Assembly: GCF_038051985.1 (NCBI RefSeq) | Contig: NZ_CP150291.1 | Span: 3,472,001 to 3,536,000 of the forward strand | Length of the DNA stretch: 64,000 nt | From: Solibacillus sp. FSL H8-0523 | Lineage (GTDB): Bacteria > Bacillota > Bacilli > Bacillales_A > Planococcaceae | Direction of reading: 5' to 3' | Shown here: one piece after another, positions 5,335 to 58,174 of the stretch | Position numbering within the stretch: the stretch's first letter is position 1 | Layout of the letters: each line of letters opens with the position of its first letter | The notes under the pieces: generated by a model | Told to the model about the DNA's origin: nothing | The model's database searches: none | What the model saw: the letters and a program-made list of their open reading frames with translations, nothing else | Position numbers and translations under genes: made by a program

Positions 5335-5650
5335 GTTCATCACTACAGGTTAGGGATGATAAATTTTAATAAATAGAATAGGTCCTTGAAATCGAACCCG
5401 TTCTACTACGCTACGGGGAAACGCGTTGAAGCGAGTTGCTTTTGAGCCCGCGTCCATTGTACTGCGTTCTGGGGCAGGCTTTCCGGGCGGCGTGGCTCCA
5501 ACTAATTTTTGATGCCTCTTACGGCGGCATCAAAAGTGGATTTTCCGCGCACGCTTAATCGCCAAGGAGTCCGCCCCTGCACTCCGCACAACTCTTTTCG
5601 TTGAAGCGAATGTGTTGGTCAACTCGCGATAGCGCAAGCGGCTTGATATT
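5335..5650 (+). repeat. Composite intergenic repeat, copy A
   Basis: This is one of six related non-coding blocks in the window. It begins with a terminal box (GTTCATCAC...GGGATGA, 5335-5359) and continues with the GC-rich segment ending in GGCGTGGCTCCAACTAA. The core hairpin follows: arms ATTTTTGATGCC (5505-5516) and GGCATCAAAAGT (5526-5537). After that come the CCGCGCACGC segment and the 20-nt module CTCGCGATAGCGCAAGCGGC (5623-5642). The second long hairpin seen in other copies is absent, so this copy is truncated on its right side. It fills the lgt-ppaX gap and contains no plausible gene. Confidence 0.88.
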
Positions 5651-5685
5651 GCGCTCTTAACTTAATAAAGAATTCTACCTTCTTT

Positions 5686-5718
5686 TTTAAAAAACCGTTC
5701 GCATCAACTGCAAACGGT
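5686..5718 (-). terminator. Terminator after lgt
   Basis: On the minus strand ACCGTTTGC pairs with GCGAACGGT and is followed by a T run. It ends the hprK-lgt transcript before repeat copy A. Confidence 0.8.
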
Positions 5719-5726
5719 CTCCTCAC

Positions 5727-6593
5727 TTATTTCTTTTTGTTTTGCTTTTTCTTTGCTGCTGGTTTTGTTCCAGGATCTTTATCTAAATAACGCACAGCGG
5801 GTTTCACATTCATACGGCGGTAGATGATACAAATTAAACCGATCGCAAATCCAAGAATCGACACGACTTGTGCTGAACGTAAATCGCCCACTAAGTATAA
5901 GCTGTCGGTACGTAATCCTTCGATGAAGAATCGGCCGAACGAATACCACATTAAATAGAAGAAGAACATTTCCCCGCGGCGCCAATTCCACTTGCGCGCG
6001 AACAATAAAATAACAAAGCCAATAATATTCCATAACGACTCATATAAAAATGTTGGATGCACATATGTACCATCTTCTTTAATGTACATTTGCTCGATAA
6101 TCCAGTTTGGTAAAAATAGATTTTCTAAAAACGTACGACTTACCGGACCACCATAGGCCTCTTGGTTCACAAAGTTGCCCCAACGGCCGATAATTTGCCC
6201 GATTAAAATACTTGGTGCGGCAATATCCGCTAAGTGTAAAAAGCTTGTTTTGCGTTTTTTTGTAAATAGATACGCCACAATAAACGCACCAATTAACGCA
6301 CCATGAATGGCAATCCCACCATTCCAAATTTCAATAATGCGTCCTGGATTCTGACTGTAATAATCCCACTTCATCGTCACGTAATAAATACGCGCACTTA
6401 AAATCGAAATCGGTACGGCCCAAATTAATAAATCGGCAATATATTCCGAATCATACCCGTGACGCATGGATTCACGCTGTGCTAAAAAGTAGGCAAGTAC
6501 AATTCCTAATCCGATTAAAATCCCATACCAGTTCACTGGAATCGGTCCTAAGTGAAAGGCCACTGGGTTAATTGCTAAAACTACTGATGACAT
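5727..6593 (-). CDS. lgt: Prolipoprotein diacylglyceryl transferase Lgt
   Basis: It transfers diacylglycerol from phosphatidylglycerol to the lipobox cysteine of prelipoproteins in the membrane, the first step of lipoprotein maturation. The 288-residue protein is multi-spanning and has the family signature [14 protein letters not shown] at residues 136-149, the HGAL segment near 97-100, and a lysine-rich cytosolic tail. GAAGGGAG precedes the ATG. It sits 35 bp after hprK. Several likely substrates lie in this window (the cytochrome c, PrsA, and the lipoproteins at 26.4, 29.0 and 58.5 kb). Confidence 0.97.
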
Positions 6594-6628
6594 AATATTC
6601 TCCCTTCAACTCGTTCTCGTTTTAGAAC

Positions 6629-7567
6629 TTAAAAATCATCCATTTCATCGCCTGCAACGAGCATATCATCTAAACGACGCGAAAATTCCTCAGCTGCATT
6701 AACACCCATCTTTTTCAGACGATAATTCATCGCAGCTACTTCAATGATTACCGAGACATTTCGACCAGGCTGGATAGGAATTGTCAGCTTCGTCACTTCG
6801 GTATCGATAATTTTCATTTTTTCCTCATCTAATCCTAGACGATCATAAAAGCGTTCAGGATCCCAGTTTTCCAGTTCGACGATTAATGTAATCCGTTTAA
6901 ATGGACGAATCGCACTTGCGCCAAATAACGTCATAATATCAATGATGCCAATACCACGAATTTCAAGCAGGTGCTCCAATAGTGGCGGGGCATTCCCTAT
7001 TAACATATTTTCGCCCTCTTGACGAATTTCGACGCTATCATCTGCAACAAGACGATGCCCTTTTTTTACAAGTTCTAGTGCCGTTTCACTTTTTCCAACG
7101 CCACTTTTCCCCATAATCAGCACACCAATACCGTACACATCTACAAGAACTCCGTGCATCGCTGTTGTTGGTGCTAGCTTACCTTCTAAATAGTTTGTTA
7201 AACGGCTGGAAAAACGTGTTGTCGTTTGATTTGAAACAAGAACGGGCACATGATTTTCATTCGATGCCTCAATTAATTCCTGTGGTACTTCCAAGCCACG
7301 CGAAATAATAATCGCCGGTGTTTCATCTGAACATAGACGATTCATACGACTAATCTTTTCTTCTTTCGGGAGCATTTCAAAAAATGAAAGCTCGGTTTTG
7401 CCTAATAGTTGGACTCGATTGGCTGGGTAATGTGTAAAATAACCGGCCATTTCCAGTCCAGGACGTGAAATATCACTTGTTGAAATATAGCGTCCAATAC
7501 CTTCTTCTCCGCTCACTAACTCCAGCTGGAATTTTTCCATGACATCTTTTGTAATTACTTGAATCAT
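6629..7567 (-). CDS. hprK: HPr kinase/phosphorylase HprK
   Basis: This bifunctional enzyme phosphorylates HPr (and Crh) on Ser46 when glycolytic intermediates are high and removes the phosphate when phosphate is high. It thereby controls CcpA-dependent catabolite repression. The Walker A motif GKSGVGKS is at residues 153-160, preceded by the catalytic-histidine region HGVLVDVYG (138-146). The family signature [10 protein letters not shown] is at 201-210. The 312-residue length is normal. It heads an operon with lgt; ppaX, which clears the pyrophosphate it produces, lies further downstream. Confidence 0.97.
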
Positions 7568-7661
7568 AAATTTGGTAAGCTCCCATCTTTATTACATCTC
7601 ATGTGTATTTTAACATGGAAAAAACAATTGCTATAGATTACAGCTCTAATTTTTTGAATTT

Positions 7662-7693
7662 AAAAACGATGAAGCACATGTGCTCCATCGTTC
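7662..7693 (-). terminator. Terminator after the cytochrome c gene
   Basis: AACGATG pairs with CATCGTT around the self-complementary AGCACATGTGCT, and a T run follows on the minus strand just after the cccB-like stop. Confidence 0.8.
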
Positions 7694-7704
7694 TCATTTG
7701 TAAA

Positions 7705-8022
7705 TTATTTCAATCCTGCTAAATAGCCAGCTGCTGCTTCGGCTTCTGCTCCCTTTAGTAAACCTGGAGGCATGCGATCCTTACCGTTTAAAATAATGTC
7801 TAAAATTTCTTCTTCAGAGTACTTAGCCCCTAATTTATCTAGTGCTGGCGCGTTACCACCTTGCAATTGACCACCGTGGCACGTTGCACAAGATTGTTGT
7901 ACAATTTTTTTTCCGTCTAGCTCTGCTGTTTCTCCAGTTGATGAAGAATCGTCTCCGCCACCACATGCTGCTAAAAATAGTGCTGAACCTAATACAATCG
8001 TTGAAAGTAAGCTTTTTTTCAT
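7705..8022 (-). CDS. cccB: Lipoprotein cytochrome c-551 (CccB-like)
   Basis: This is a small membrane-anchored c-type cytochrome that carries electrons on the outer face of the membrane. A signal peptide ends in lipobox LAAC with the lipidated Cys20, followed by a Gly/Ser/Asp-rich linker. The haem site CATCH is at residues 45-49, and the likely axial Met is in RMPPG near residue 84. The 105-residue length fits CccB. A neighbouring YitT-family gene upstream matches the cccB-yvjA pairing I recall from B. subtilis. GGAGGGG precedes the ATG. Confidence 0.9.
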
Positions 8023-8077
8023 TCAGAAACCCCTCCAAATTGAAACATTTGTCTATCTATTCCATAGTATAACAAAT

Positions 8078-8941
8078 TTATGCTCGTTTGAAACCTTCAC
8101 CCAACACCTCATAAGCATCTGAAACGATGACAAATGCTTGTGGGTCAACGTCTTTTAGCACTTGTTTCAGCTTTGTGAACTCTGTTTGGTACACAACGAC
8201 CATCAATACAGGACGATCCTCTCCTGTATAACCACCGATTGCCGGTAGCTTGGTAATCCCGCGGTTTACTTCTTTATAGATGGCATCACGTACTTCAATT
8301 TCCTTTTGCGTAATAATATATACCATTTTCGACTGACTAAAACCAAGCTGCACGATATCAATCGTTTTTGTCGTGACATAAAGACCGATTAACGCATACA
8401 GCCCTTTTTCTATATCAAAGACAATGGCCGCACTCACGGCGATAATTCCGTCAATTAACAGAACACTTGTCCCGAGCGTAAGCCCCGTGTACTTCGTAAT
8501 AATTTGTGCTAACAAGTCCGTACCGCCCGTAGAAGCGTTCCCTTTAAACACTAGACCAATACCAAAGCCGACAACGATCCCGCCAAAAATAGCGCCAAGC
8601 AGTGGATTTAACGTCCACGGCTCCCAATCACCCGTTAAAATAACGAATAACGGTAGCGCTAATGTACCAACTAAAGACTTCACACCAAATTTTTTACCTA
8701 GTACAAATACACCGGCAATAAATAATGGAATATTAAACGCATATTGCACAAGCCCAGCATTCCAGCCAAACATCCCGTGCAAAATCGTACTAATTCCGCT
8801 CACACCGCCTGAAGCGACTTGGTTCGGAAATAAAAACACATTAAAGCCAAGTGCAATGACCGCCGCACCAACAATAACAAATATATATTCCTGTATGACA
8901 TGTTTTACTGAATTACGCGATTGATACGCTGTTTTTCCCAT
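8078..8941 (-). CDS. yvjA: YitT/DUF161 family membrane protein (YvjA-like)
   Basis: This is a polytopic membrane protein of unknown function with five or six hydrophobic segments in residues 10-190, followed by a cytosolic DUF2179 domain of about 80 residues (GGYTGEDRPVLMVVV). I place the start at ATG 8941 (MGKTAYQSR), which has GTGAGG 7 bases upstream. The in-frame ATG at 8971 lies only a few bases after a TATAAT, so it would sit at or before the transcription start. Length from the chosen start is 287 residues. The substrate is unknown. Confidence 0.85.
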   Translation of the reverse strand: MGKTAYQSRNSVKHVIQEYIFVIVGAAVIALGFNVFLFPNQVASGGVSGISTILHGMFGWNAGLVQYAFNIPLFIAGVFVLGKKFGVKSLVGTLALPLFVILTGDWEPWTLNPLLGAIFGGIVVGFGIGLVFKGNASTGGTDLLAQIITKYTGLTLGTSVLLIDGIIAVSAAIVFDIEKGLYALIGLYVTTKTIDIVQLGFSQSKMVYIITQKEIEVRDAIYKEVNRGITKLPAIGGYTGEDRPVLMVVVYQTEFTKLKQVLKDVDPQAFVIVSDAYEVLGEGFKRA

Positions 8942-8974
8942 GAAAATCCTCACTTCTTTTCCAAATTCCATTGA

Positions 8975-8980
8975 ATTATA
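8975..8980 (-). promoter_or_regulatory. Extended -10 element for the YitT-family gene
   Basis: TATAAT preceded by TGC (extended -10, TGCTATAAT) lies on the minus strand. Transcription would begin near 8968, which decides the choice of the downstream start codon at 8941. No clear -35 is seen. Confidence 0.5.
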
Positions 8981-9018
8981 GCAAATTCAAATGAAAAAGA
9001 GAACTTCATTACGTTAAA

Positions 9019-9063
9019 GGAAAAGGAGCTAATTTTGCGCATTTCGCACGAAAATAGCTCCTT
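9019..9063 (-). terminator. Terminator after the EAL-HDOD gene
   Basis: AAGGAGCTA pairs with TAGCTCCTT across a longer imperfect stem, and a T-rich tail follows on the minus strand. The stem overlaps the stop codon. Confidence 0.75.
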
Positions 9064-10303
9064 ATTTAGTCATAAGCATGGCTTCATCGACCCATACCTT
9101 TACTTCTTCATACATCGGTAGTACTTTTTCTATTGAAATATTTAATTGCTGCGCTAACGGCTCAATTTGTTGCCAATTGAGATGATGAACTGCCACACTA
9201 AATTGTAAATACGGCGTCATGTCCGTTTTGGCTCCACCAATCGTTTCTAAGGTTGTTTCTGATAAGGGAAGCTGAACTAAAACCGCATTCATCGGACTCT
9301 TTAATAATACATCTATTAATGAAAACAATCCGACTAAAAAATACTCCGAATAATTCGCTTTACGATTTAAGCGTGCACATTTTTCGCACAGCTTCGCTCT
9401 AAATAATGAAGCATACATTAATTCATTGAACACATCACTCTTTTGTTGAATTTCAGACTCATACATCGCTAATAAATAGATCCACTTACGCAATTCTGTT
9501 AAACCTAGAAGCAAAATCGCTTGCTTAATTGACCTTATTTTAGCTTTAGGACGCTTCGTCAAATTATTAATAAGCTTTAACAAACGATAGGTTAACGAAA
9601 TTTCACGCTCAATATTTTCTACAATTAGATTGATGCTCGTTTTGTCATCTTTTAGTAATGAAATGATTTGAAAATATTGAAGTAAATTGGCCGGTATGTC
9701 GGTAACTTGTATAATTTGAGGCTTTTGAAAAAAGTACCCTTGAAATAATGAATACCCAGCATGCTTAGCGCTTTCAAATTCCTCGCGCGTTTCCACTTTT
9801 TCTGCGAGTAATTTAATATGCGGAAATGTCGATTTCACTTTGTTCTCTACGACACTTCGTTGCTGTTCACTAGATAATAAAAAATCAATTTTTATATAGT
9901 CTACCTGCTCGAATAACTCATCATAAATTAGTATCGCTTCATCCATTATGAAATCATCTAAAGCAATTTTGAAGCCTCTTTCCTTTAACTTACGTAATCG
10001 CTCGATTAATGGGGGCGTAATCGGAACATTTTCTAATAATTCAACAACCACTTTTGTTGAATCTAAAAAATCGAGCTCATCTTGCATAAGTAAATTTTCT
10101 GTGAAATTGATAAAAGAGGGTTTGCCATTTGAAATTTCCTGAATGCCAATTGTTAAAAATGAATGGATTAACACATCAATGGTTGCTTTATCTGAATCCA
10201 TTTTTGGGAATTGATTGACATGACTATTTCTATATAACAGTTCATACGCTACGATTTCTTCATCGCGATTAAATATAGGTTGCCTGCCGATAAAAACTTC
10301 CAC
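9062..10303 (-). CDS. EAL-HDOD signalling protein (YuxH family)
   Basis: This two-domain regulator has a degenerate EAL domain in residues 1-205 and an HDOD domain in 205-400. The protein opens MEVFIGRQPIFNRDEEIVAY, typical of the YuxH family. The canonical EAL motif is replaced (YELLYR), and the catalytic metal ligands of cyclic-di-GMP phosphodiesterases are mostly not evident, so it is probably not an active phosphodiesterase. FINFTENLL and KIDFLL segments are recognisable. The start is GTG with AAGGGG upstream. It is monocistronic. The role of EAL-HDOD proteins outside proteobacteria is not established. Confidence 0.85.
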   Translation of the reverse strand: MEVFIGRQPIFNRDEEIVAYELLYRNSHVNQFPKMDSDKATIDVLIHSFLTIGIQEISNGKPSFINFTENLLMQDELDFLDSTKVVVELLENVPITPPLIERLRKLKERGFKIALDDFIMDEAILIYDELFEQVDYIKIDFLLSSEQQRSVVENKVKSTFPHIKLLAEKVETREEFESAKHAGYSLFQGYFFQKPQIIQVTDIPANLLQYFQIISLLKDDKTSINLIVENIEREISLTYRLLKLINNLTKRPKAKIRSIKQAILLLGLTELRKWIYLLAMYESEIQQKSDVFNELMYASLFRAKLCEKCARLNRKANYSEYFLVGLFSLIDVLLKSPMNAVLVQLPLSETTLETIGGAKTDMTPYLQFSVAVHHLNWQQIEPLAQQLNISIEKVLPMYEEVKVWVDEAMLMTK

Positions 10304-10392
10304 GTTACATTACCCCTTCTATATATCGTTGTCTTTTTCTTATCTCTCATTGTACTATAAAATAGATTAACAAAATATAGGAGGTTAACGAT

Positions 10393-11169
10393 GTGAATAC
10401 TGTAAAATATGAACAAAAAGATTTCATCGCTTATGTTACATTAGATCGTCCTGAAATGTTAAACGCTTTTAATTTTGACATGCTTGAGCAATTACGTAAG
10501 GTGATTGAATCCATTCATATCCATCCCGATATTCGTCTTGTAATTATTACAGGAGCCGGCGATAAAGCATTTTCGGTTGGTGCAGATTTAAAGGAACGCA
10601 AAACACTTCCGGATTCGCTCGTTCGGCGCAATTTAAATCGATTTGGCGAGGTATTTACGTTAATCGAGCAATTGCCACAGCCTACAATTTGTATGTTAAA
10701 TGGCTACGCTTTTGGCGGTGGTCTAGAGCTTGCACTTGCTTGCGATTTCCGAATTGCCGCAGATAGCATTACACTTGGCCTAACTGAAACGAGTCTCGGG
10801 ATTATTCCTGGTGCTGGTGGTACACAACGACTACCGCGCTTAATCGGTGAGGCAAAGGCACTTGAATTGATTTTAACCGCTAAGCGCATGACTGCTGCTG
10901 AAGCACTGCAATACGGCGTACTCACAAAAGTGGCACCGCGTGAACAGCTTCAAGAAGTAACTACAGCGTTTGCAGCAGCGATTTTAAAAAATGCCCCCAT
11001 AGCTATTCAGCAGGCGAAATTCGCTGTAAAGCAAGGCATCAAAACGGATATTCAAACTGGCTTACAAATCGAACGCAAAGCCTATGAGTTAACGATTCCA
11101 ACAGAAGACCGAATTGAAGCACTAAACGCCTTTGCCGAAAAAAGATCCCCACAATTTAAGGGGAAATAA
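10393..11169 (+). CDS. Enoyl-CoA hydratase/isomerase family protein
   Basis: This is a crotonase-fold enzyme, likely hydrating an enoyl-CoA; the exact substrate cannot be told. The 258-residue sequence has the oxyanion-hole region GAGDKAFSVGADLKER near residues 54-70 and YAFGGGLELALACDFRIA near 104-121. The catalytic Glu pair region is TETSLGIIPGAGGTQRLPRLIG near 132-153. The start is GTG at 10393, eight bases after AGGAGG. A neighbouring ATG at 10391 is immediately followed by a stop. It stands alone and shares a bidirectional terminator with the DedA gene. Assignment to crotonase, methylglutaconyl hydratase or isomerase is not possible from motifs. Confidence 0.88.
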   Translation: MNTVKYEQKDFIAYVTLDRPEMLNAFNFDMLEQLRKVIESIHIHPDIRLVIITGAGDKAFSVGADLKERKTLPDSLVRRNLNRFGEVFTLIEQLPQPTICMLNGYAFGGGLELALACDFRIAADSITLGLTETSLGIIPGAGGTQRLPRLIGEAKALELILTAKRMTAAEALQYGVLTKVAPREQLQEVTTAFAAAILKNAPIAIQQAKFAVKQGIKTDIQTGLQIERKAYELTIPTEDRIEALNAFAEKRSPQFKGK

Positions 11170-11224
11170 TTTATTATTCTTCTCCTATCAGTAATTTCAA
11201 TTTCTTATTATTTTCACGAAATAA

Positions 11225-11258
11225 AAGGGCATCGCTAAACAACATTAGCGATGCCCTT
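11225..11258. terminator. Bidirectional terminator between convergent genes
   Basis: AAGGGCATCGCTAA pairs perfectly with TTAGCGATGCCCTT around a six-base loop, between the convergent hydratase and DedA genes. Confidence 0.85.
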
Positions 11259-11263
11259 ACTTA

Positions 11264-11902
11264 TTATTTTTTACGCGCTTTTAACGCACCGATAATTGCA
11301 GGTAATACTGAAATTACAATAATTAAAATTAATACAACTGAGAAGTTATCTTTGATAATTGGAATATTTCCGAAGAAGTAGCCCAGTAACGTACAGCTCA
11401 TCACCCATAAAAATGCGCCAAGTACGTTGTAAAAAAGGAAGTAACGATAATGCATACGACTTGCCCCTGCAACGAAGGGAATGAACGTACGAATAAATGG
11501 CATGAAGCGGGCAATAACGATTGTTTTACCACCATGCTTATTGAAGAAATTTTGGGCAATTTCTAAACGCTCACGATTAATGACGCGACCGATAAAGCTA
11601 TTTTCCGGAATCGACATCCCTACTTTATGCCCAATATGATAATTGACTGTATCTCCAATTACAGCTGCTACGAAGAACACGATTAATAGTGTATATAAGT
11701 TAAATGCGCCTAGAGCAGCAAGTGTACCACTCGCAAATAATAGCGAATCCCCCGGTAAAAACGGCATAATGACTACGCCTGTTTCAACGAATACTATGCT
11801 AAATAAAATCCCATATGACCAATTGCCAAACTGTTGGATAATATCAACAAGATGCTCGTCAATGTGTAAAATAAAATCAATTAACCCATAAATGATTGAC
11901 AT
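11264..11902 (-). CDS. DedA family membrane protein
   Basis: This is an integral membrane protein of the DedA/SNARE-associated (VTT domain) family. Members are now linked to flipping of phospholipid or undecaprenyl-phosphate carriers and to proton-motive-force homeostasis. The 212-residue protein shows the family segment FVETGVVIMPFLPGDSLLF near residues 39-57 and GGKTIVIARFMPFIRTF near 125-141, with four or five hydrophobic helices and a basic C terminus. It is monocistronic with a weak ribosome site. Which DedA subfamily and which substrate are unknown. Confidence 0.9.
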   Translation of the reverse strand: MSIIYGLIDFILHIDEHLVDIIQQFGNWSYGILFSIVFVETGVVIMPFLPGDSLLFASGTLAALGAFNLYTLLIVFFVAAVIGDTVNYHIGHKVGMSIPENSFIGRVINRERLEIAQNFFNKHGGKTIVIARFMPFIRTFIPFVAGASRMHYRYFLFYNVLGAFLWVMSCTLLGYFFGNIPIIKDNFSVVLILIIVISVLPAIIGALKARKK

Positions 11903-12075
11903 CGTTATTCTCTCTTTTCTACTAAATTATTTTTTTATTTTATCATACTATGAAAGTGACCGTTATTTATTTCTACTTAGTAAAGACGCATTCCTTGTTT
12001 AATTGTTGCTACAATCAGTCTTTTGCTAATCAAATTTACAAAACTGTAATATTAGAGCGTCATTATGAACAATAT

Positions 12076-12104
12076 GAAAAGGGTACCCACGAATGTGGAT
12101 ACCC
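12076..12104 (-). terminator. Terminator after the S9 peptidase gene
   Basis: GGGTATCCAC pairs with GTGGGTACCC around a four-base loop and is followed by TTTTC on the minus strand. Confidence 0.75.
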
Positions 12105-12115
12105 AACATTTCTTT

Positions 12116-14089: not shown

Positions 14090-14163
14090 AAGGCACCCCT
14101 CAACTATTTCGGATTTCGTAATACAAAAAGCTTATCATTTTTTAATTGAAATTTCAAAATTCT

Positions 14164-14820
14164 GGTTCATCCCCCTAAGTTCAGAGCCATTCTGCTGCGC
14201 TACGGGGATAACGCGTTGAATTGAGATAATTTTAAGCTCGCGTCCGTTGCACTTCGTTCCGGGGCAGGCTTTTCTGGGGGCGTGGCTCCAACTAACTTTT
14301 GATGCCTCTTACGGTGGCATCAAAAGTGGATTTTCCGCGTACGCTTAATCCCCTAGAAGTCCGCTCCTTCACTCCGTACAACTCTATTTTTCGAAGCAAG
14401 TTTAGTGAGAACTCACCCTTCGCTCCGCATCACTCTACTTTGGAATAAAGCCGGATTCTGTAAAAAATGATGAAACATAGCATGTCCCTTTTAAAATAGT
14501 GCTACTTATATCAAACGGTAATATAAAAGAACCTTTCAATAAATGAATTTTCAATCAGCACAGCTTTAATTAAGTACATTTAATTTAGAAAGAATAACTT
14601 TTTTACCATCTGCCGCCTCGCGATAGCGCAAGCGGCTTGATTTTTTGTTTTTACTTTACTTTATAACGAAAGTAAAAGTTTATGATTGGCGGGCCTCGCA
14701 TGCGGCATTAGAGAAAGTGGTAGAGACACGTACGACGTGGCTCTAACGCTTTCATGCCGTTGCCCGCCAATAAAAATGCAAAACTTTATACGAAAAACAC
14801 CCCGAGGTATGGTGATGAAC
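14164..14820 (+). repeat. Composite intergenic repeat, copy B
   Basis: This is the most complete copy of the family. It has terminal boxes at both ends (14164-14180 and 14801-14820). The core hairpin has arms ACTTTTGATGCC (14295-14306) and GGCATCAAAAGT (14316-14327). The module CTCGCGATAGCGCAAGCGGC lies at 14617-14636. A second long hairpin with outer arms ATTGGCGGGC (14685-14694) and GCCCGCCAAT (14762-14771) has nested pairing CGGCAT/ATGCCG inside. About 180 bp of AT-rich spacer separate the two halves. It fills the gap between the acyl-CoA ligase and S9 peptidase genes; no gene is seen in it. Confidence 0.9.
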
Positions 14821-14834
14821 TAAAATTCTACTCC

Positions 14835-22861: not shown

Positions 22862-22918
22862 TGTAAAAAAGCGATTCGCATACCATAGGATTGATTATTC
22901 TAATAGATTTTCATTTAA

Positions 22919-23425
22919 TTTATTGGTGGGCTACGGCATGACAGCATTATGGCCACCAATCCATCATATTTCCCCTCGTCATAAAGTTAAGAACGGATAT
23001 TAAACCGCTTGCGCTATCGCGAGGCGGCGGATAGTGAAAAAGTGATGCTTTCTTTATTTAATATGCTTCAATCAATGCTTTACTGATCGAAAAGGTTCTT
23101 TTTTACCCTTGATTAAAAATAGAACTATTTTGAAAGGAACTTGCTTTGTTTCATCATTTTTTAAAGAAGTTCACTTTATATCAAAGTAGAGTGGCGCGGA
23201 GTGAAGGCGGCAGACTCCTGCGGGAACAGCAAATCTTTATTTGCGACGAAAGCGAAGCGACAGGAGCACGTGCGGAAAATCCATTTTTTGTGCCGCCGTA
23301 AGAGGCATAAAAAATTAGTTGGAGCCGTGCCCGCGGAAAGCGTCCGCCGTAACGGAGCAGAACGGACTCAAATAGAAAACATATTTCATTTTTTATCTTA
23401 TCATCCCCAACTTATTGTGATGAAC
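22919..23425 (-). repeat. Composite intergenic repeat, copy C
   Basis: This copy runs on the minus strand. Reading along the plus strand, first comes a collapsed second hairpin whose right arm is lost: ATTGGTGG (22922-22929) now pairs with CCACCAAT (22953-22960). Then come the GC-rich module (CCGCTTGCGCTATCGCGAG, 23005-23023) and an AT-rich spacer. The core hairpin has arms ATTTTTTGTGCC (23283-23294) and GGCATAAAAAAT (23304-23315), with one A-C mismatch. A terminal box lies at 23401-23425. It has an extra segment flanked by CTCCTG and CAGGAG (23215-23266) that copy D lacks. It lies between yhfH and yhgE. Confidence 0.88.
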
Positions 23426-23426
23426 C

Positions 23427-30012: not shown

Positions 30013-30085
30013 TGGAAAAGATAAATTTGTGAATTTTTGGGTAATCGCCGTAACATAGAGTTACTTTTCTAATATATTTTAACTT

Positions 30086-30555
30086 GATTGATTGTCGGGC
30101 TACGGCATGACAGCATTATGGCCACGTGGTACGTGTCCATACTACTGTCTTTAATGCCGTTTGCGATGCCCACCAATCCATAAATTTTACTCTGTAAATA
30201 AAATTAAGTGCGTGAAATCAAGCCGCTTGCGCTATCGCGAGGCAGCAGGTATTGGGCAATATTTACTCATTTGATTTAGCATACTTTTTTATTTTCTAGG
30301 TTAAAATTATCCCTGTTTATAAGGAGTACTATTTTAATTATTATGATAAACCATTTTGTTAGAAGGGCTCACTTTATAACAAAGTAGAGTGGCGCGTAGC
30401 GGAGGGGGTGACTCCTGCGGGAACAGCACGCGCGGAAAATCCATTTTATGTGCCACCGTAAGAGGCACATAAAATTAGTTGGAGCCGTGCCCGCGGAAAG
30501 CTTCCCCCGTAGCGTAGCAGAACGGATTCAATTAAAAGAGCTTATAGTAATGAAC
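30086..30555 (-). repeat. Composite intergenic repeat, copy D
   Basis: This is a minus-strand copy. The second long hairpin has outer arms GATTGTCGGGC (30090-30100) and GCCCACCAATC (30168-30178) and inner ACGGCAT/ATGCCGT. The GC-rich module is at 30222-30241. The core hairpin has arms ATTTTATGTGCC (30443-30454) and GGCACATAAAAT (30464-30475), which pair perfectly despite differing from the other copies at several positions. A degenerate terminal box ends it (30541-30555). It fills the gap between the beta-propeller operon and hemY. Confidence 0.88.
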
Positions 30556-30573
30556 GCCATTTTTTCTCAAAAC

Positions 30574-38891: not shown

Positions 38892-38966
38892 AGTGGTCAC
38901 TCCTTTTTTCTAAATTTTAGTTTATCAAAAGCAATTGCAGTTGAACACTGAATGCGTCTTTTTCTT

Positions 38967-38986
38967 CCCAACTTATGGTGATGAAC
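38967..38986. repeat. Solitary terminal box of the composite repeat family
   Basis: CCCAACTTATGGTGATGAAC matches the box found at the ends of the large repeats (for example 23406-23425) but stands alone in the ecsA-hit intergenic region, with no core or hairpin beside it. Confidence 0.6.
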
Positions 38987-39037
38987 CCTATTTTCTATGA
39001 TAAAATGAAGGAAAATATCACATAAAAGGAGCGCTTA

Positions 39038-46786: not shown

Positions 46787-46794
46787 AGTGCAGA

Positions 46795-47312
46795 ATCCGT
46801 GCTACGCTACGGGTGTAATCGCGTTGAAGCAAGGTGATTTTAGGCTTGAGTCCGTTGTACTGCGCTCCGGGGCACGCTTTTCTGAGGGCGTGGCTCCAAC
46901 TAACTATTGATGCCTCTAACGGCGGCATCAATAGTGGATTTTCCGCGCACGCTGACCCTCTAGAAGTCGGCCCCTGCGCTCCGTACAACTCTTTTCGTTG
47001 AAGCGGATCTTTTCGTGGCTCACCCTTCGCTACGCGGCACTCTAATTTGGTATAAAGAGCACTTCTGTAAAAAAAGAATCTTTTTTTACATAGTACTACC
47101 TATAGGCACATCCGAGCATTTCCGCTCTCTGCAGCCTCGCGTTAGCGCAAGCGGCTGGTTTTCTCGCTCTTCACTTTATACTGAGCGCAACACTTTGCGA
47201 TTGGTGGGCCTCGCAAACGGCAATAAAGGCAGTGATAGAGACACGTATCACGTGGCTTTATCGCTGTCTTGCCGTAGCCCACCAATCAAAACAGTAAAAC
47301 TTTCTTAGAAAA
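46795..47312 (+). repeat. Composite intergenic repeat, copy E
   Basis: This is a plus-strand copy in the convergent MFS-yhaM gap. The core hairpin has arms ACTATTGATGCC (46903-46914) and GGCATCAATAGT (46924-46935): relative to copies B and F, one base changes in each arm and pairing is kept. The GC-rich module reads CTCGCGTTAGCGCAAGCGGC (47136-47155). The second long hairpin has outer arms GATTGGTGGGC (47199-47209) and GCCCACCAATC (47277-47287), with inner ACGGCAA/TTGCCGT. No terminal boxes are recognisable. No gene is seen. Confidence 0.9.
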
Positions 47313-47342
47313 GCAAACTAAATTCTTCTTATGAAAATAAAA

Positions 47343-50846: not shown

Positions 50847-50862
50847 TTCTATACACCCCTTA

Positions 50863-50880
50863 TTTATGAATAATCATTCA
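50863..50880. promoter_or_regulatory. FadR-like operator before the enoyl-CoA hydratase gene
   Basis: TTTATGAATAATCATTCA fits the Bacillus FadR consensus TGAATGANTANTCATTCA with two mismatches; the right half is perfect. It lies 17-34 bp upstream of the start. Confidence 0.55.
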
Positions 50881-50906
50881 TTTCGACAACGTGTAGCATT
50901 TTCCCT

Positions 50907-52553
50907 TTATTTACTCAGGAATTTCCCAACTTGTAAACCTGTAAACAGACAACCACCAACAAATGTCCCTTCAAGCGAACGGTAGCCATGTACACCGCCA
51001 CCACCAAAGCCACTCACTTCACCTGCTGCAAAAAGCCCTTTGATTGGGTCCCCTGTGTCGGTTAATACTTGCCCATCCAAATTCGTTTGTAAGCCCCCTA
51101 ATGTTTTACGCGTCAAAATATTTAAGCGTACCGCAATGAGTGGTCCTGCTTTTGGATCTAAAATTTTATGAGGCTTTGCAGCACGAATTAATTTATCTCC
51201 TACATAATTACGTGCCCCGTGAATTGCTGTTACTTGTGCATCTTTTGAAAAATGATTATCCATTTCACGATCACGCGCTAAAATTTGGTCCTTAATATGA
51301 ATGAAATCCAGTAACTCGCTACCGACAAGCTTGTTCATACCGTCCACTAAATCCTTTAAGCTATCAGCAACAACGAAGTCTTCCCCGTAGTCTTTAAACG
51401 CTTGCACGGCTGATGGTGGGCCAGGTAACACACGCTTTAATACTTCTTTAATACTTTTATTTGTTAAATCTAAATTTTGTTCCGAGCCGGACAATGCAAA
51501 TTCTTTTTCAATTATTTTTTCCGTTAAAATAAACCACGAATAGTCATAGCCCGTTTGTCCAATCGCTTCAAGCGTGCTCAGCGTATCAAAGCCTGGGAAA
51601 TTTGGAGCGCTAAAGCGATTGCCTGTTGCATCAAACCACATTGATGATGGACCAGGTAGAATACGAATGCCGTGATTTGGCCAAATCGGATTCCAGTTTT
51701 TCAAACCCTCTGTGTAATGCCACATACGGTCACGATTAACGATACGTCCACCAATTCCCTCTGCCATTTCAAGCACCTTTCCGTCCACATAAGCCGGTAC
51801 ACCCGACACCATATTTTCAGGTGGCTTACCGAGACGTGCGGGCCAATTTTTCTTTACCAGTTCAATATTGGCTCCAATACCACCACTTGCGACAACAACA
51901 GCATCTGCCGTGTATTCAAACGTATCCATGACAACTCGAGAACTTTTCTCTCCTCGTTCAATATTGCTTTCTTCTAATACATTGCCATGAATCCCTGTTA
52001 CTGCACCATTTGTTGTTAACAGCTCTGTTACTTGATGACGTGGTTTATAGTCGATTTTGTCCGTGCTTGCTGCTTGTAACACTTTTTGTGCAAATGGCTC
52101 GACTAAGCCAGGACCTGTTCCCCACACAATGTGAAAGCGCGGTACAGAATTCCCATGCCCACCTGCTAGTGAGCCACCACGTTCTGCCCAACCAACTACC
52201 GGAAAAAAGTGAATGCCCTTTGATTTTAACCAGTTATATTTCTCCCCTGCGGCAAAATCTACATAAGCCTTCGCCCACTTGTAGCCCCATGCATCTTCAT
52301 CGTCTAGCCGGTCAAACCCCGCCGTCCCAAGCCAATCTTGCCATGCCAGTTCCTTTGTATCTTTAATTCCAAGTCTTCTCTGCTCTGGTGAATCCACTAA
52401 AAACAAACCTCCAAATGACCAAAACGCCTGTCCGCCAATTGAATTGGCAGGCTCTTGATCGACAAGCAACACCTTTTTATTGGCATCCAGTAATTCACAA
52501 GCCGTCACTAATCCCGCTAATCCTGCACCTACAACAATTACATCATAATGCAT
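50907..52553 (-). CDS. FAD-binding dehydrogenase (fumarate reductase/ketosteroid dehydrogenase superfamily)
   Basis: This 548-residue flavoprotein starts with the FAD fold VIVVGAGLAGLVTACELL at residues 5-22 and GGQAFWSFGGLF near residue 41. A substrate domain lies in the middle, and it ends with LFAAGEVSGFGGGGVHGYRS (near 515) and EGTFVGGCLF, the second FAD contact. It belongs to the FAD_binding_2 family that includes 3-oxosteroid 1-dehydrogenases and flavocytochrome-type reductases. No haem or Fe-S motif is present. The true substrate is unknown. AAAGGAGG precedes the ATG. It is followed by a FadR-boxed enoyl-CoA hydratase. Confidence 0.85.
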   Translation of the reverse strand: MHYDVIVVGAGLAGLVTACELLDANKKVLLVDQEPANSIGGQAFWSFGGLFLVDSPEQRRLGIKDTKELAWQDWLGTAGFDRLDDEDAWGYKWAKAYVDFAAGEKYNWLKSKGIHFFPVVGWAERGGSLAGGHGNSVPRFHIVWGTGPGLVEPFAQKVLQAASTDKIDYKPRHQVTELLTTNGAVTGIHGNVLEESNIERGEKSSRVVMDTFEYTADAVVVASGGIGANIELVKKNWPARLGKPPENMVSGVPAYVDGKVLEMAEGIGGRIVNRDRMWHYTEGLKNWNPIWPNHGIRILPGPSSMWFDATGNRFSAPNFPGFDTLSTLEAIGQTGYDYSWFILTEKIIEKEFALSGSEQNLDLTNKSIKEVLKRVLPGPPSAVQAFKDYGEDFVVADSLKDLVDGMNKLVGSELLDFIHIKDQILARDREMDNHFSKDAQVTAIHGARNYVGDKLIRAAKPHKILDPKAGPLIAVRLNILTRKTLGGLQTNLDGQVLTDTGDPIKGLFAAGEVSGFGGGGVHGYRSLEGTFVGGCLFTGLQVGKFLSK

Positions 52554-52877
52554 ACAAAACGCCTCCTTTGTGTTTCTTCTTTACATGTTCGTGCTTCGTT
52601 ACAATTCCCCTTCAAAAATCAGAAGGAAAGTAAATCAAGCTCATTTCAAAAGCTGACAACTTTATGTCATAAAAAGTGAATCCGAATTTTCATTGTTATA
52701 TTAATCAACTAAATTTTTCAGTAAATTCAATTAAATCTAGTTATATCAACATCGTTAGCGCTTACATCCAAAAGCCACCAAAACGAATGATTTGATAATT
52801 ATTTTAAATATAGTTCGGTTTTTAACCATTACACACAGATGAAAACAAAAATAATTTCATAAATTCCGATAATTCCG
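52554..52877. other. AT-rich intergenic region upstream of the serA promoter
   Basis: This is the divergent region between the FAD dehydrogenase and serA. I see no gene, hairpin of note or repeat copy in it; the start of the FAD gene has only its ribosome site here. Confidence 0.5.
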
Positions 52878-52907
52878 TTGACAAAGGTGAACAATCGGGT
52901 TTATGAT
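52878..52907 (+). promoter_or_regulatory. Promoter of the serA T-box leader
   Basis: TTGACA (52878-52883) and TATGAT (52902-52907) with an 18-bp spacer. Transcription would start near 52914, giving a leader of about 350 nt. Confidence 0.7.
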
Positions 52908-52914
52908 GTTAACA

Positions 52915-53206
52915 AATTTAATCACGACAAACTATTGTGATAGAGACATGCTAATTCGTTTTGTATAGCAAAGAGAGCTGGTGGTTGGTGTAAACCAGTG
53001 TATACGCGAAGTAAGTTCCACTCTTGAATAGAATAGCTGAACATTGTAGTAGGTTATTCCGTCCCATGCACGTTACGCATATGGATAAGGTTGTATGTAT
53101 ATTTTTCGGAATATTACAACAACGAATAAGGGTGGTACCGCGATTCTGATATTTATTAGCCTTTCGCCCCTTACAGTGACATGTAAGGGACGGAAGGCTT
53201 TTTTTA
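52915..53206 (+). promoter_or_regulatory. T-box riboswitch (serine) controlling serA
   Basis: The T-box sequence AGGGTGGTACCGCG is at 53129-53142, followed by a terminator hairpin AGCCTTTCG.CCCTTAC / GTAAGGG.CGGAAGGCT and seven T (about 53158-53206). Upstream, Stem I is suggested by GCAAAGAGAG pairing with CACTCTTG. The putative specifier loop reads GTTCCACTC, where UCC (53017-53019), followed by A, is a serine codon. Uncharged tRNA-Ser(GGA) would stabilise the antiterminator and switch on serA. The specifier is placed by analogy, without folding. Confidence 0.88.
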
Positions 53207-53267
53207 TTATGTTTCATAAAACATAACAATCAAAAAAACGATGAAGATTAAGGGAGAGAATTTTATT

Positions 53268-54890
53268 ATGGCAACTGAAGTTATCGAAAAGGCAACAAAA
53301 ACAATTAACGTATTTATTGCAGATCCACTTAGTGAAGATGGGATTTTTCCATTACGTCAGGAAACTGAATTAAACTTAAACGTTATTATCGATACAGGTC
53401 TTGCTCCTGAAGAATTAATCGCAAAAATCGCGGACGTTGAAGTATTATTAGTTCGTTCTCAAACAACAGTAACGCGCGAAGTAATCGAAGCAGCAAAAAA
53501 CTTAAAATTAATCGGTCGTGCTGGCGTAGGTGTAGATAACATCGACTTAACAGCTGCAACTGAGCACGGTATTATCGTAGTAAACGCACCAGATGGTAAC
53601 ACAAACTCTGCTGCTGAACATACAATCGCCATGATGACATCTTTAGCTCGTTACATTCCACAAGCCTTCAACACACTGAAAAACGGTAAATGGGACCGTA
53701 AATCATATGTTGGGGTTGAGTTAAAAAATAAAACATTAGGCGTAATCGGCATGGGCCGAATCGGTGCAGAAGTTGCTTACCGTGCAAAAGGTCAACGTAT
53801 GAACGTTATCGCATATGACCCATTCTTAACTGAAGAGCGCGCAAAAGAGCTTGGCGTAACAAAAGGTACAGTGGATGAAGTTTGTGCAGCTGCTGAATTC
53901 ATCACAGTGCATACGCCTCTATTACCTGAAACACGTAACATCATTAACAAAGAGCGCTTTGCAATTATGAAAGACGGCGTTCGCATTATTAACTGTGCTC
54001 GCGGTGGTATTATTAACGAAGATGATTTATATGACGCAATCGTAGAAGGTAAAGTCGCTGGCGCAGCACTTGACGTATTCATTGAAGAGCCTGCAACAGA
54101 TCACAAATTACTAACGTTACCACAAGTGATCGCAACACCTCACTTAGGTGCATCTACAGTAGAAGCACAAGAATCAGTTGCTGTTGACGTATCAAACGAC
54201 ATCATTAAATTCTATAAAACAGGTACCGTAACAAACCCAGTAAACATGCCTTCAATTCCAAAAGAAAAGCTTGCACAAGTAGAGCCATTCTTTGCATTAG
54301 CTGAAAAGCTTGGTAAATTCTTAATCCAAGTAACAGAAGAAAGCATTCAACAATTAAACATCTCTTACGCGGGTGAAGTTGCAAACTTTGACGTTCGTCC
54401 ATTAACAGCAAACGCTATTAAAGGCTTACTATCTACAAACCACGGTTCTCACGTAAACGATGTAAACGCACGTTACTTAGCTGAGCGTATCGGTATGCAA
54501 ATTAACGAGCATAAAACAACAACTGCAAAAGGCTTCACAAACTTAATTACAGTTGAAATCGTAACAGAAACTGAAAAACATACAGTTGCTGGTACATTAT
54601 TAAACGGCCTTGGCGCACGTATCGTAAAAGTAGAAGGCTTCGTTGTAGACGTAATTCCAAACGGCAACCTACTTTACATTAAAAACCAAGACAAACCAGG
54701 TTCAATCGGTCGCGTAGCAACAAAATTAGCAGAAAAAGAAATCAATATCGCAACGATGCAAGTAGGTCGTGATCAAGTTGGTGGTTCTGCTGTTATGATG
54801 CTTGTAGTGGATAATGAAGTAACAACGGAAGATTTAATTTATGTAGCACAACTTGAAAATATCGATGAAGTAAAAGCTATTTCTCTATAA
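53268..54890 (+). CDS. serA: D-3-phosphoglycerate dehydrogenase SerA
   Basis: This NAD enzyme oxidises 3-phosphoglycerate to 3-phosphohydroxypyruvate, the first step of serine synthesis. In order it has a substrate domain, the Rossmann NAD domain ([16 protein letters not shown] near residue 145), catalytic His in TPHLGAST, an intervening ASB domain (about 320-450), and a C-terminal ACT domain ([20 protein letters not shown]). I use ATG 53268 ([11 protein letters not shown]), which has AAGGGAGAG upstream; the longer frame to 53241 lacks a site. Length is 540 residues. The serine T-box lies upstream. Confidence 0.96.
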
Positions 54891-54900
54891 TTTCACCTTC

Positions 54901-54941
54901 AATACGGATAAGCGCATTATGCAGCTTATCCGTATTTTTTT
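54901..54941 (+). terminator. Terminator after serA
   Basis: AATACGGATAAGC pairs with GCTTATCCGTATT, followed by a T run. Confidence 0.85.
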
Positions 54942-55115
54942 ACCAGTAAAATTAACTATTTTACACACGAATTCTACTCATTAATAATCCCAGTTGTAGT
55001 TCTTAATAAGGATTTATTTTACTTTCATTCAAGTTTTGTACAGTGAATTGTATACTAGACATATCAAGAAAAATTTTGACAATTCTAACGAAACTTATGC
55101 AAAGGAATTTTCTAT

Positions 55116-56366
55116 ATGAAAAAAACAATAATGCGATGTTTTATGACGCTTTGCTTCGGGTTTGTGCTTTTCTTTTTACCGCAACATTCAACAGCCTCAC
55201 CTACTGCTGACATCAAGTTCACGCTTGAGGCGAGCGAGTTACTTGATGAGTCTTTCCAGTACGTTTTGACAGAATTACCGAAACACGCACCAGTTACCGT
55301 GTTAGCCGTGCAAGACGACTGGCTTAAAGTGCAATTCAAAACACAAGTTGGCTACATTAAAAGCGACCAGCTCACAATCCTTCCACCTCAATACATGCTC
55401 GTACAAGCAAAAAGTGCGCCACTTGTTCACGTGACGGATTTACAGCAAAGTGAGGGACGTGGCAAGCTCCATTTAAACAGTATCGTTGAGGTGTATCCAA
55501 CAGATTCAAAAAATTTCGTTTTCGTACGCTACGGTCACCTAGCAGGCTATGTGAACAAACATCTACTTGTTCAACCAAAAGTCAAATTAATGACAGTAAA
55601 AGATCCAAAGGGTGTTGTCGTACGTTCTACTGCAAGTCCATCTGGTCCGGTCATTGGGCAACTTCCAGCCAAATCTGAAGTAAAGATGCTAACGACCCTA
55701 GTAGGTTGGGCATTTGTTACGACCGACAAACTATCAGGCTATGTGTTAGCAAGTAGCTTAATACCGGCAAAAGAAAAACCAGCTACTACAAAACCTACTA
55801 GTTCAACGAAAGTAAAAAAAATAGCGCTCACTTTTGATGATGGACCACATGCAAAAGTAACGCCGCAAATTTTAAAAATACTAGAGAAATACGATGCAAA
55901 AGCAACGTTTTTCGTTGTCGGAAATGAAGTAAAAAAGAATCCGAAAGTGCTACAAGCCGTTGCTGATGCAGGTCACGAAATCGGTAATCACACGTTTAAT
56001 CATGCAAAACTAACAACTTTGTCAGCAAGAAAAATAAAGCTACAAATTGACTCCACTGACGCGGCGATTAAAGCAGTCATTGGGCAAAACGCTACTGTAT
56101 TTCGTCCACCATATGGTGCTCTTAATAAAACCGTATCGAATCAATTAAAAGTACCGAGTGTGCTATGGACAATTGATACATTAGATTGGAAGCATCGCGA
56201 TCCAAAGCAAACATTAGCATCGGTACAAAAAAACGCGAAAAACGGCAGTATTGTTTTACTACACGATATCCACCAAACAACAGCCGATGCATTAGAGCCT
56301 ATTTTAGCGTTGCTGGAAAAGCAGGGCTATGAATTTGTAACTGTATCGGAAATTTTAAAGAAATAA
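55116..56366 (+). CDS. Secreted polysaccharide deacetylase with SH3b domains
   Basis: This exported enzyme has a signal peptide (about residues 1-28, ending near STA-SPTA) and three bacterial SH3-like wall-binding segments (about 30-90, 95-150 and 160-215). A Lys/Thr-rich linker follows. The NodB deacetylase domain has the metal Asp pair in LTFDDGPH near residue 243, HTFNH near 290, RPPYGAL near 331 and the C-terminal LLHDIHQ. It probably deacetylates peptidoglycan or a wall polymer. AAAGGAA precedes the ATG. It is monocistronic, downstream of serA. Confidence 0.9.
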   Translation: MKKTIMRCFMTLCFGFVLFFLPQHSTASPTADIKFTLEASELLDESFQYVLTELPKHAPVTVLAVQDDWLKVQFKTQVGYIKSDQLTILPPQYMLVQAKSAPLVHVTDLQQSEGRGKLHLNSIVEVYPTDSKNFVFVRYGHLAGYVNKHLLVQPKVKLMTVKDPKGVVVRSTASPSGPVIGQLPAKSEVKMLTTLVGWAFVTTDKLSGYVLASSLIPAKEKPATTKPTSSTKVKKIALTFDDGPHAKVTPQILKILEKYDAKATFFVVGNEVKKNPKVLQAVADAGHEIGNHTFNHAKLTTLSARKIKLQIDSTDAAIKAVIGQNATVFRPPYGALNKTVSNQLKVPSVLWTIDTLDWKHRDPKQTLASVQKNAKNGSIVLLHDIHQTTADALEPILALLEKQGYEFVTVSEILKK

Positions 56367-56412
56367 AAAAAGTTCCATGATTCGTACTTGATTACGAATC
56401 GTGGAACTTTTT
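56365..56412. terminator. Bidirectional terminator
   Basis: AAAAAGTTCCA-GATTCGT pairs with ACGAATC-TGGAACTTTTT between convergent genes. Confidence 0.85.
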
Positions 56413-56776
56413 AATTAAAGGACTTTAAATTTAAAAATGTTAGTGTTTCTGAATCCATTGCAAAATCTAGTGTGCTCGCCACTTCAATACCTTGCGTCAT
56501 ACTTACAACCGCTACAGTTACTGCCGCTAACGTTGCCCCTACCGCAATAAACCCTGATAACAGGCGATGGGCTTTTTGCATTTCCACATTGGATTGTTTT
56601 ACATCTTTTTTACGCACAAGCTTGAAAAATCGTTCGTGCTGATGAGGCATCGATAACACATGGGCACACGCTAAGCAGAGTTGGGCACTATGACGTGCGA
56701 TCACTACAAAATCTACCTGTACATATTCAGTTGTACGTCCGCAGTTTTCACAGCGGCATGCTCCATTGTTATCCAT
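56411..56776 (-). CDS. Uncharacterised protein with cysteine cluster and one membrane helix
   Basis: I do not recognise this 121-residue protein. The N terminus has cysteines arranged CRCENC near residues 8-13 and CLAC near residue 34, spaced like a zinc ribbon. A basic helical stretch and one hydrophobic helix (about 69-92, SGFIAVGATLAAVTVAVVSM) follow, with a short tail. The ATG at 56776 lies eight bases after GAGG; an upstream in-frame ATG has no site. It is monocistronic. An anchored zinc-ribbon adaptor is one possibility. Confidence 0.72.
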   Translation of the reverse strand: MDNNGACRCENCGRTTEYVQVDFVVIARHSAQLCLACAHVLSMPHQHERFFKLVRKKDVKQSNVEMQKAHRLLSGFIAVGATLAAVTVAVVSMTQGIEVASTLDFAMDSETLTFLNLKSFN

Positions 56777-56867
56777 AAGAACAACCTCTTTCATTGTATT
56801 TGTATAGCCAGTATATCATAAATTTTTAGAAAATTCTCTATTTTAAAGTCATTATTCTAGAAAACTA

Positions 56868-56896
56868 AAAAACGCATAGAAATCCATGCGTTTTTA
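56868..56896 (-). terminator. Terminator after the HAD hydrolase gene
   Basis: AAAAACGCAT pairs with ATGCGTTTTT around a nine-base loop. Confidence 0.8.
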
Positions 56897-56900
56897 GCAT

Positions 56901-57689
56901 TTATAATGTTTGAACGAGCTTTAGAAATTCGGTTAATGACGTCACTTCATACGTCGGTGTCACATCTGGATTTTGTGGCTTGTCTTCCCGGTTAATCCAT
57001 ACATTGCGCATATTCACGCGAGATGAACCTAAAATATCCGTCATTAAATTATCGCCAACCATAATCCCATCGTCTTTTGTAACATTGGCCTTTTCCATTA
57101 CAAACTCAAAAATGGACGCGTCTGGTTTTCCTTTACCAAAGTCGCCTGAAATAATAATGTGATCAAAGTACGGTACGATTTCGGGTGTGATTTCTAATTT
57201 TAATTTTTGTAGGCTTGGTGCACCATTTGTTAATAAGACAAGCTGATACTTGCCTTTTAGTTCATCTAAAACGGCAAAGGTATCCTCGTAGAAGAACGGT
57301 GCTTTTTTACGCTCTGCCACAAAGCGCTCTCCCAGTTCTGCGCCAAATGTAGCATCGTCTACACCAAGCGCGGCTAAACCATTCGTCCAAGATTGTGCAC
57401 GGTAGCCCGGTACGATTTCCTTCATTTTTTGGAACTGTGGGGTAGGGTCATCAAATGTACCCCATAAACCTTCAAACGGGTTAATCCCAATTAACACTGT
57501 GTAATCATACGTTTCGTAGCTTTCATATAATGTACGTGCAGCTTTACGCACTTCGTCTTCAAGCTGTACAGCGTCTACGTTTTTCACTGAGCTTGCATAA
57601 GCACATGTTTTTTCAAATGCTGTTTTTACGGATTTTTGATCGTATAGCAGTGTATCATCTAAATCGAAAATAATTGTTTTAATTGCCAT
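56901..57689 (-). CDS. HAD-superfamily hydrolase (YjjG/YfnB-like)
   Basis: This 262-residue HAD subfamily IA phosphatase has motif I IIFDLDDTLL at residues 6-15, motif II LLTNGAPSLQK near 155, and motif III/IV GKGKPDASIF with MVGDNLMTDILG near 217. A helical cap lies at residues 20-115. The closest named relatives are noncanonical pyrimidine nucleotidases (YjjG) and YfnB. The substrate cannot be assigned. AGGAG precedes the ATG. It stands alone with repeat copy F upstream. Confidence 0.87.
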   Translation of the reverse strand: MAIKTIIFDLDDTLLYDQKSVKTAFEKTCAYASSVKNVDAVQLEDEVRKAARTLYESYETYDYTVLIGINPFEGLWGTFDDPTPQFQKMKEIVPGYRAQSWTNGLAALGVDDATFGAELGERFVAERKKAPFFYEDTFAVLDELKGKYQLVLLTNGAPSLQKLKLEITPEIVPYFDHIIISGDFGKGKPDASIFEFVMEKANVTKDDGIMVGDNLMTDILGSSRVNMRNVWINREDKPQNPDVTPTYEVTSLTEFLKLVQTL

Positions 57690-57792
57690 GAATTTTGCTC
57701 CTAAACTTTAATTATGTACACTCTTATTTTATCATAATAAAGCATGTTATTTTTGATTCATTTTGACTTTTCTAAAAATTAAATATAAGATC

Positions 57793-58174
57793 CTCACCAT
57801 AAGTTGGGGATGACAGATATTTCTACTTGCGTCCCCTCTGCTACGCTACAGGGGAAACGCGTTGAAGCAAGATGATTTTAAGCTCGTGTCCGTTGTACTG
57901 CGTTCCGGGGCAGGCTTTCCGGGCGGCGTGGCTCCAACTAACTTTTGATGCCTCTGACGGCGGCATCAAAAGTGGATTTTCCGCGCACGCTTAATCGCCA
58001 AGGAGTCCGCCCCTGCACTCCGCACAACTCTATTCGTTGAAACAAGTGTTTATGTAGCTCACCCTTCGCTCCGCGTCACTCTGCTTCAGAAGCAAGTCGT
58101 GCTCATGCCGCAGCCCGCCAATCAATACAGTAAAACTTTATTAGAAACCGCAACCCCATGTTACGGTGATGAAC
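57793..58174 (+). repeat. Composite intergenic repeat, copy F
   Basis: Terminal boxes lie at both ends (57793-57813 and 58154-58174). The core hairpin has arms ACTTTTGATGCC (57941-57952) and GGCATCAAAAGT (57962-57973). The spacer, the GC-rich module and the left arm of the second hairpin are missing; only its right arm (CATGCCGCAGCCCGCCAATC, 58104-58123) remains. The copy thus has an internal deletion of roughly 280 bp relative to copy B. It lies between the HAD hydrolase and DUF3006 genes. Confidence 0.88.

Follow-up and report, generated by a model that had tools for sequence, protein, structure and literature searches.

Six intergenic hairpin repeats of a Solibacillus genome are probably decayed, non-autonomous elements with ISL3-type ends

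What kind of element leaves six copies of the same hairpin-rich repeat between the genes of a single 64-kb stretch of a bacterial genome? The question is raised by positions 3472001-3536000 of the single-contig genome of Solibacillus sp. FSL H8-0523 (G000; 4,144,207 bp), a stretch of 64,000 nucleotides to which we refer as the window. An earlier note, made from the sequence alone, had described six intergenic blocks (A to F) in the window as a scattered, decaying or modular element. We read them as mostly decayed copies of a non-autonomous ISL3-family element that resembles a miniature inverted-repeat transposable element (MITE), carries a palindromic cargo and was mobilised in trans; the probability of this reading is, in our estimate, roughly 0.88.

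All six blocks share the same ordered parts, with A, B, E and F on the plus and C and D on the minus strand, as the earlier note had it. In the window GGCGTGGCTCCAACTAA has six matches at up to three mismatches (chance mean 0.13) and CTCGCGATAGCGCAAGCGGC has five (chance 0.01), both judged against shuffle controls, and a repeat search of the window clustered the same blocks. Chance or an assembly artefact would be the simplest alternative, and we give it practically no weight: it is refuted by these counts, by the reversed-pattern control described below and by core copies in all 16 genomes of the genus. The losses of parts recorded earlier were confirmed (A without the second hairpin, F without the middle, E without its ends). 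The make-up of the blocks had to be amended. The "terminal boxes" are real, but they are in fact transposon ends; moreover, B is complete, C has lost its right end and A keeps only its left one. No open reading frame of at least 100 amino acids lies inside any of the six blocks, in agreement with the earlier description (shorter frames were not examined).

Each terminal box is one side of an imperfect terminal inverted repeat, GGYTCATCACCRTAASWTGGGG. Its pattern, GGTTCATCACNNTAANNTGGGG, has 35 matches in the own genome at up to three mismatches, versus none for the reversed control. Block B is flanked on both sides by the 8-bp sequence AAAATTCT (14156-14163 and 14822-14829). Over all loci collected, we defined 34 end pairs (up to five mismatches per end and seven together, spacing 80-1500 bp). 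These take in the full elements L063, L066, L089 and L150 as well as loci whose ends were paired in more than one way (L066 twice, L226 three times), while block B falls outside them because its ends carry too many mismatches. An exact 8-bp target duplication was found in 9 of the 34 pairs, L150 among them, where 0.06 would be expected; identity of the 8-bp flanks averaged 0.71 versus 0.41 for re-paired flanks. Duplication lengths of 4-7 and 9-11 bp were near background, and 8 bp alone stands out.

Using the 4.2-kb region around block B as query in the 16 same-genus genomes (15 relatives), we found its flanks only 35-75 bp apart in five relatives (G002, G015, G013, G011 and G004), versus about 710-720 bp in the window, and in the alignment of these short-flank relatives the gap coincides with the duplication at block B. 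The remaining ten have 150 bp to 1.8 kb at this site. Neither the end pattern (five mismatches allowed) nor GGCTCCAACTAA (two allowed), a motif of the core, was found in the intergenic stretch of any of the 15, and block B is thus absent from its site in every relative. Three of the ten longer sites carry other hairpin sequence: in G005 the core model has a single weak match of 28.7 bits, and weak matches to the second hairpin, at 68-70% identity, occur in G001 (two) and G012 (one). The two in G001 stand in tandem (L287, G001:C1:2932580-2933760, at 658-770 and 863-975). In the relatives block B itself is missing there, yet sites of this kind attract related repeats.

Which transposase could recognise such ends? 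G021 and G034, both genomes of the same family, have full insertion sequences that share these ends, are about 1.3 kb long and encode ISL3-family (PF01610) transposases. One element of G021 measures 1316 bp, has TAATATTT on both sides and holds an open ISL3 frame of 397 amino acids; a second copy, L134, encodes a 397-amino-acid protein that matches DDE_Tnp_ISL3, as does the 399-amino-acid protein of the G034 element L063 (1310/1311 bp). A 3' remnant of such an element is present within the genus, in G013. We therefore assign the blocks to the ISL3-type MITEs. Most ISL3 loci of the relatives lack this end: among the PF01610 matches extracted as loci, to which the end scan applied (other PF01610 matches lay outside it), end pairs occurred only in L134, apart from the loci that the end pattern had picked out in G021 and G034, and the rest had no match or single matches with five mismatches. 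At L134:930-3510 a frame that looks nitrilase-like by eye comes after the ISL3 element, and more of the same ends come after it, an arrangement like that of a composite transposon. The single ISL3 remnant of the own genome was also considered as partner and rejected, as none of these ends lies within its 3.3-kb locus. A Y1 (IS200-like) transposase gene adjoins this remnant (L061:865-1443).

The cargo between the ends is made up of palindromic units: first a core hairpin, about 110 nt in length, then a short hairpin module and finally the long second hairpin. A covariance-model search, as the earlier note had proposed, was performed with a core model (R1) built from 36 of 64 distinct core matches, hand-picked for completeness and variety. 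The own genome yielded at least 52 copies of the core, six of which lie in the window; this may be an undercount, because 150 of 1292 candidates were scored. Core density in the window is about seven times the genome average, so that the "very high genomic load" expected if the window were typical does not hold as worded. R1 matched all 16 genomes of the genus, 168 of the 200 genomes and 17 of the 17 genera of the order sampled, which we take to be the family Planococcaceae, and 27 of 250 genomes of the class (18 of the same family, nine of other families). For the order sampled, this supports the earlier suggestion of a widespread Bacillales repeat to which the outer, GC-rich parts would belong. 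All 14 stretches with the exact gapped core pattern in a named genome collection came from Lysinibacillus, Solibacillus or Metasolibacillus, and block B had no match in plasmid and phage collections in a distant-mode search.

The same cargo also travels with other ends. G002 and G015 carry core, spacer, module and second hairpin between a different conserved pair, CTCATAATGAGCATTTTTCAATAC on the left and GCTCAATGTTAG on the right; this second end pair in Solibacillus is of the CTCATAATGAGC type. We collected 38 such loci (36 from G002 and G015, two from G013) and placed both ends in 23. A duplication of about 6-8 bp is supported there: at 7 bp the value was 0.615 versus a permuted mean of 0.44, with 0 of 500 permutations as high, and some loci are not independent because they are orthologous between G002 and G015. 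In five second-type loci (L197, L199, L215, L216 and L219) the core is split by an additional palindromic module (GGCCAACA-GATGTTGGTC and following). G014 harbours a different ISL3-family element of 1515 bp with TTTAAAAT on both sides, in which a related GTTGATT...AATCAAC unit lies 6 bp past the stop codon of the transposase, and a 259-bp MITE with AACAAAAA on both sides that contains little beyond its ends and the core unit.

In other genomes the core unit also occurs alone. Repetitive extragenic palindromic (REP) sequences are linked to REP-associated tyrosine transposase (RAYT) systems, and the lone cores could likewise suggest that a Y1 (RAYT-type) transposase moved the core as a REP-like unit and that the ISL3 ends were added secondarily. 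The own genome does carry a Y1_Tnp gene (PF01797, 3.7e-13), the one beside the ISL3 remnant. However, R1 finds no core copy in the 3.3 kb around it, and the composites show 8-bp duplications; we regard this origin as quite improbable. At an orthologous locus of G001 (L116) and G006 (L174), at about 1400-1720 and with flanks 93-97% identical, the core unit is oppositely oriented and its inner module differs. In the cores of L083, L069, L042 and L116, the CTAA stem is swapped for a module with CCAAAGCTTT and a GCGACGA...CAGGAGC stretch. In relatives, frames judged by eye to be dnaK-like and dnaJ-like flank the core unit (L096, 780-1720; L103, 830-1780), and in L096 a tandem array with a period of about 123 bp adjoins it.

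Are the hairpins of this cargo maintained? Of the 25 pairs predicted for the core, 11 have changed on both sides; 96.9% of its cells are paired versus 83.0% after shuffling, and the covariation score is 0.360 versus 0.116 (0 of 500 shuffles as high). The second hairpin has both-sided changes in 10 of 27 pairs (43 copies chosen from 57 matches). A stem of at least 7 bp is present in 124 of 134 motif-defined matches, with 79 distinct 5' arms when a difference in arm length is counted; the other ten resembled chance motif pairs. After two more had been dropped by eye as chance, the outer nine pairs of the remaining 122 copies were Watson-Crick in 1053 of 1098 cases and G-U in 12 (97% paired), versus 49% Watson-Crick when 3' arms were re-dealt among copies. 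These copies were gathered via the flanking motifs, which favours conserved flanks and leaves the stems unselected. The hairpins are probably kept as structure, either of RNA or of single-stranded DNA. Together with the ISL3-type inverted repeats and the recurrence of the cargo with other ends, the covariation of the stems had escaped the earlier reader.

Such stem differences might instead stem from the rewriting of whole hairpin arms, by template switching or exchange between copies, and not from selection on pairing copy by copy. Copies with identical 50-nt flanks can show 5' arms only 33% alike that still pair, and the own-genome pair L119 and L105 (spacer identity 0.83, arm identity 0.33), the best of few such pairs, suggests that a whole stem may have been replaced. 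Arm identity nevertheless climbs with spacer identity, reaching 0.85 at spacer identities of 0.8-0.9 (35 pairs) and 1.0 in two pairs above 0.9, which weakens fast, simple rewriting. Some low identities are one-base-pair shifts scored position by position, and some copies whose stem is otherwise the same contain mismatched pairs (for example L115 and L117 versus L114). Most of the pattern therefore fits long divergence under pairing, and we hold rewriting as its general cause to be possible but doubtful.

The conserved unpaired motifs GGCTCCAACTAA and TGGATTTTCCGC that accompany the covarying stems, and the predicted RNA fold of block B (z -3.77 versus 20 shuffles), would also suit a gene for a structured RNA or a family of cis-regulatory RNAs, with hairpins acting as RNA at each site and transposon ends that are incidental. 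Against this, no block matches Rfam at gathering score (best E = 1, for block B), and the one promoter-like site around block B is below the shuffle mean of 1.8. Parts are freely lost among the blocks, block B is missing at its site in all 15 relatives, and the 8-bp duplications show insertion. An RNA family of this kind is therefore an improbable explanation of the blocks.

Returning to the ISL3-type MITE, we propose that a transposase of this family would have recognised the imperfect inverted repeats of about 22 bp, which start with GG and end with CC, in trans and would have placed the element in AT-rich DNA between genes, duplicating 8 bp of the target, after which the copies would have decayed. 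The hairpins could act as terminator-like insulators that shield the element and its neighbours from transcription, an idea suggested by the G014 unit just past the transposase stop, or they could present a shape recognised by a protein. We also consider, tentatively and with less conviction than doubt, that the cargo may evolve as a unit in its own right. It would then be a structured nucleic acid that spreads through the Planococcaceae on several transposon ends (ISL3-type GGTTCATCACC, ISL3-type GGTTCTA and the CTCATAATGAGC type), is selected for its shape and two unpaired motifs and not for stem sequence, and has a stem that can be exchanged like a cassette.

Several results weigh against the reading of the blocks as ISL3-type MITEs with a structured cargo. 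In the own genome we found no intact transposase for these ends and just one truncated ISL3 match, and G011 has no ISL3 match though its copies include near-identical ones; the partner transposase is therefore inferred from relatives. A partner in the same genome is usual for a MITE, not required. G002 and G015, with the same cargo between other ends, have no ISL3 match either. The duplication is not exact in 25 of the 34 end pairs, some of which are near chance; the two measured G034 elements have none (3 and 4 of 8 positions match), and the second G014 copy, L145, has none in register and one only if shifted by a base. Finally, the core did no better than shuffles in two of the five covariation measures (55/500 and 386/500).

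The six blocks differ in the parts that they keep. Block B (14164-14821, plus, 658 bp) is complete, with ends at 14164-14185 and 14800-14821, core motifs at 14279-14338, the module at 14617-14636 and the second hairpin at 14684-14772. Block F (57788-58175, plus) retains both ends (57788-57809 and 58154-58175) and its core motifs (57925-57984), but its middle is deleted and only the 3' part of the second hairpin is left (58113-58123). The ends of block D (30039-30556, minus) are decayed, the left one at about 30535-30556 (by eye) and the right one at 30039-30060 (five mismatches), around core motifs at 30432-30491, the module at 30222-30241 and the second hairpin at 30090-30178. Block C (22876-23426, minus, lower boundary approximate) has its left repeat at 23405-23426, core motifs at 23272-23331, the module at 23004-23023 and a shortened second hairpin at 22921-22961. 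In block A (5334-5667, plus, right boundary approximate), the left repeat at 5334-5355 (five mismatches, read by eye) is followed by core motifs at 5489-5505 and 5537-5548 and the module at 5623-5642. Block E (46793-47316, plus, boundaries approximate) comprises core motifs at 46887-46946, the module at 47136-47155 and the second hairpin at 47199-47287. A lone terminal repeat without cargo at 38966-38987 (minus, one mismatch) is a solo relic.

By Pfam, the neighbours are a HAD hydrolase and prolipoprotein diacylglyceryl transferase for block A, an S9 peptidase and AMP-binding enzyme for B, an ABC-2 transporter and lipoate ligase for C, an amine oxidase and a protein with weak matches only for D, and an MFS transporter and HD-domain protein for E. 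Block F adjoins a HAD hydrolase and, past a shorter reading frame, a metallo-beta-lactamase-fold protein. The window also contains a T-box leader at 52928-53174 (Rfam RF00230, 101.5 bits).

What makes the family worth following is that one structured cargo comes with several kinds of end and that its stems stay paired despite wide change in their letters. If the cargo aids the movement of its carriers or shields neighbouring genes, this would explain a hairpin family in 17 of 17 genera sampled, and would make the function of abundant intergenic hairpins testable. For annotators, the message is that transposons carry some of the GC-rich repeats in these genomes as cargo.

Elements of the ISL3 family have GG...CC ends and make 8-bp target duplications. 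Like ISL3-family insertion sequences and MITEs, the elements described here show both, together with a PF01610 transposase in full elements with the same ends; unlike them, the blocks have no gene, a large multi-hairpin cargo, and the same or related cargo with several ends. The bcr1 repeat of the Bacillus cereus group, attributed to Okstad 2004, is reportedly intergenic, non-coding, mobile and hairpin-forming. As repeats of a Bacillales genome the blocks resemble it in all these traits (PMC2267715, PMC3733652), whereas bcr1 measures 147-167 bp (PMC2267715, Table 3) and the elements here reach 684 bp; the two are set apart by description, not by sequence. Bhal-1 and Bhal-2 of B. halodurans are likewise repeated stem-loop families of a Bacillales genome, but of 74 and 76 bp (PMC2267715, Table 3), and the excerpt of that source mentions no ISL3 ends for them; this comparison, too, is by description only. 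REP elements share the palindromic, intergenic character but span 20-40 bp (PMC3733652), and the blocks differ from REP/RAYT systems in that, like a DDE transposon, they end in inverted repeats and are flanked by 8-bp duplications. Among the papers listed on ISL3 MITEs, bcr1, Lysinibacillus or Solibacillus repeats and covarying hairpin repeats, no title or opening of an abstract describes this element, and an account may exist elsewhere. The usual view is that bacterial MITEs derive from an insertion sequence (review PMC10969869). As a MITE, then, the element is of a known kind; its hairpin cargo is the unusual part.

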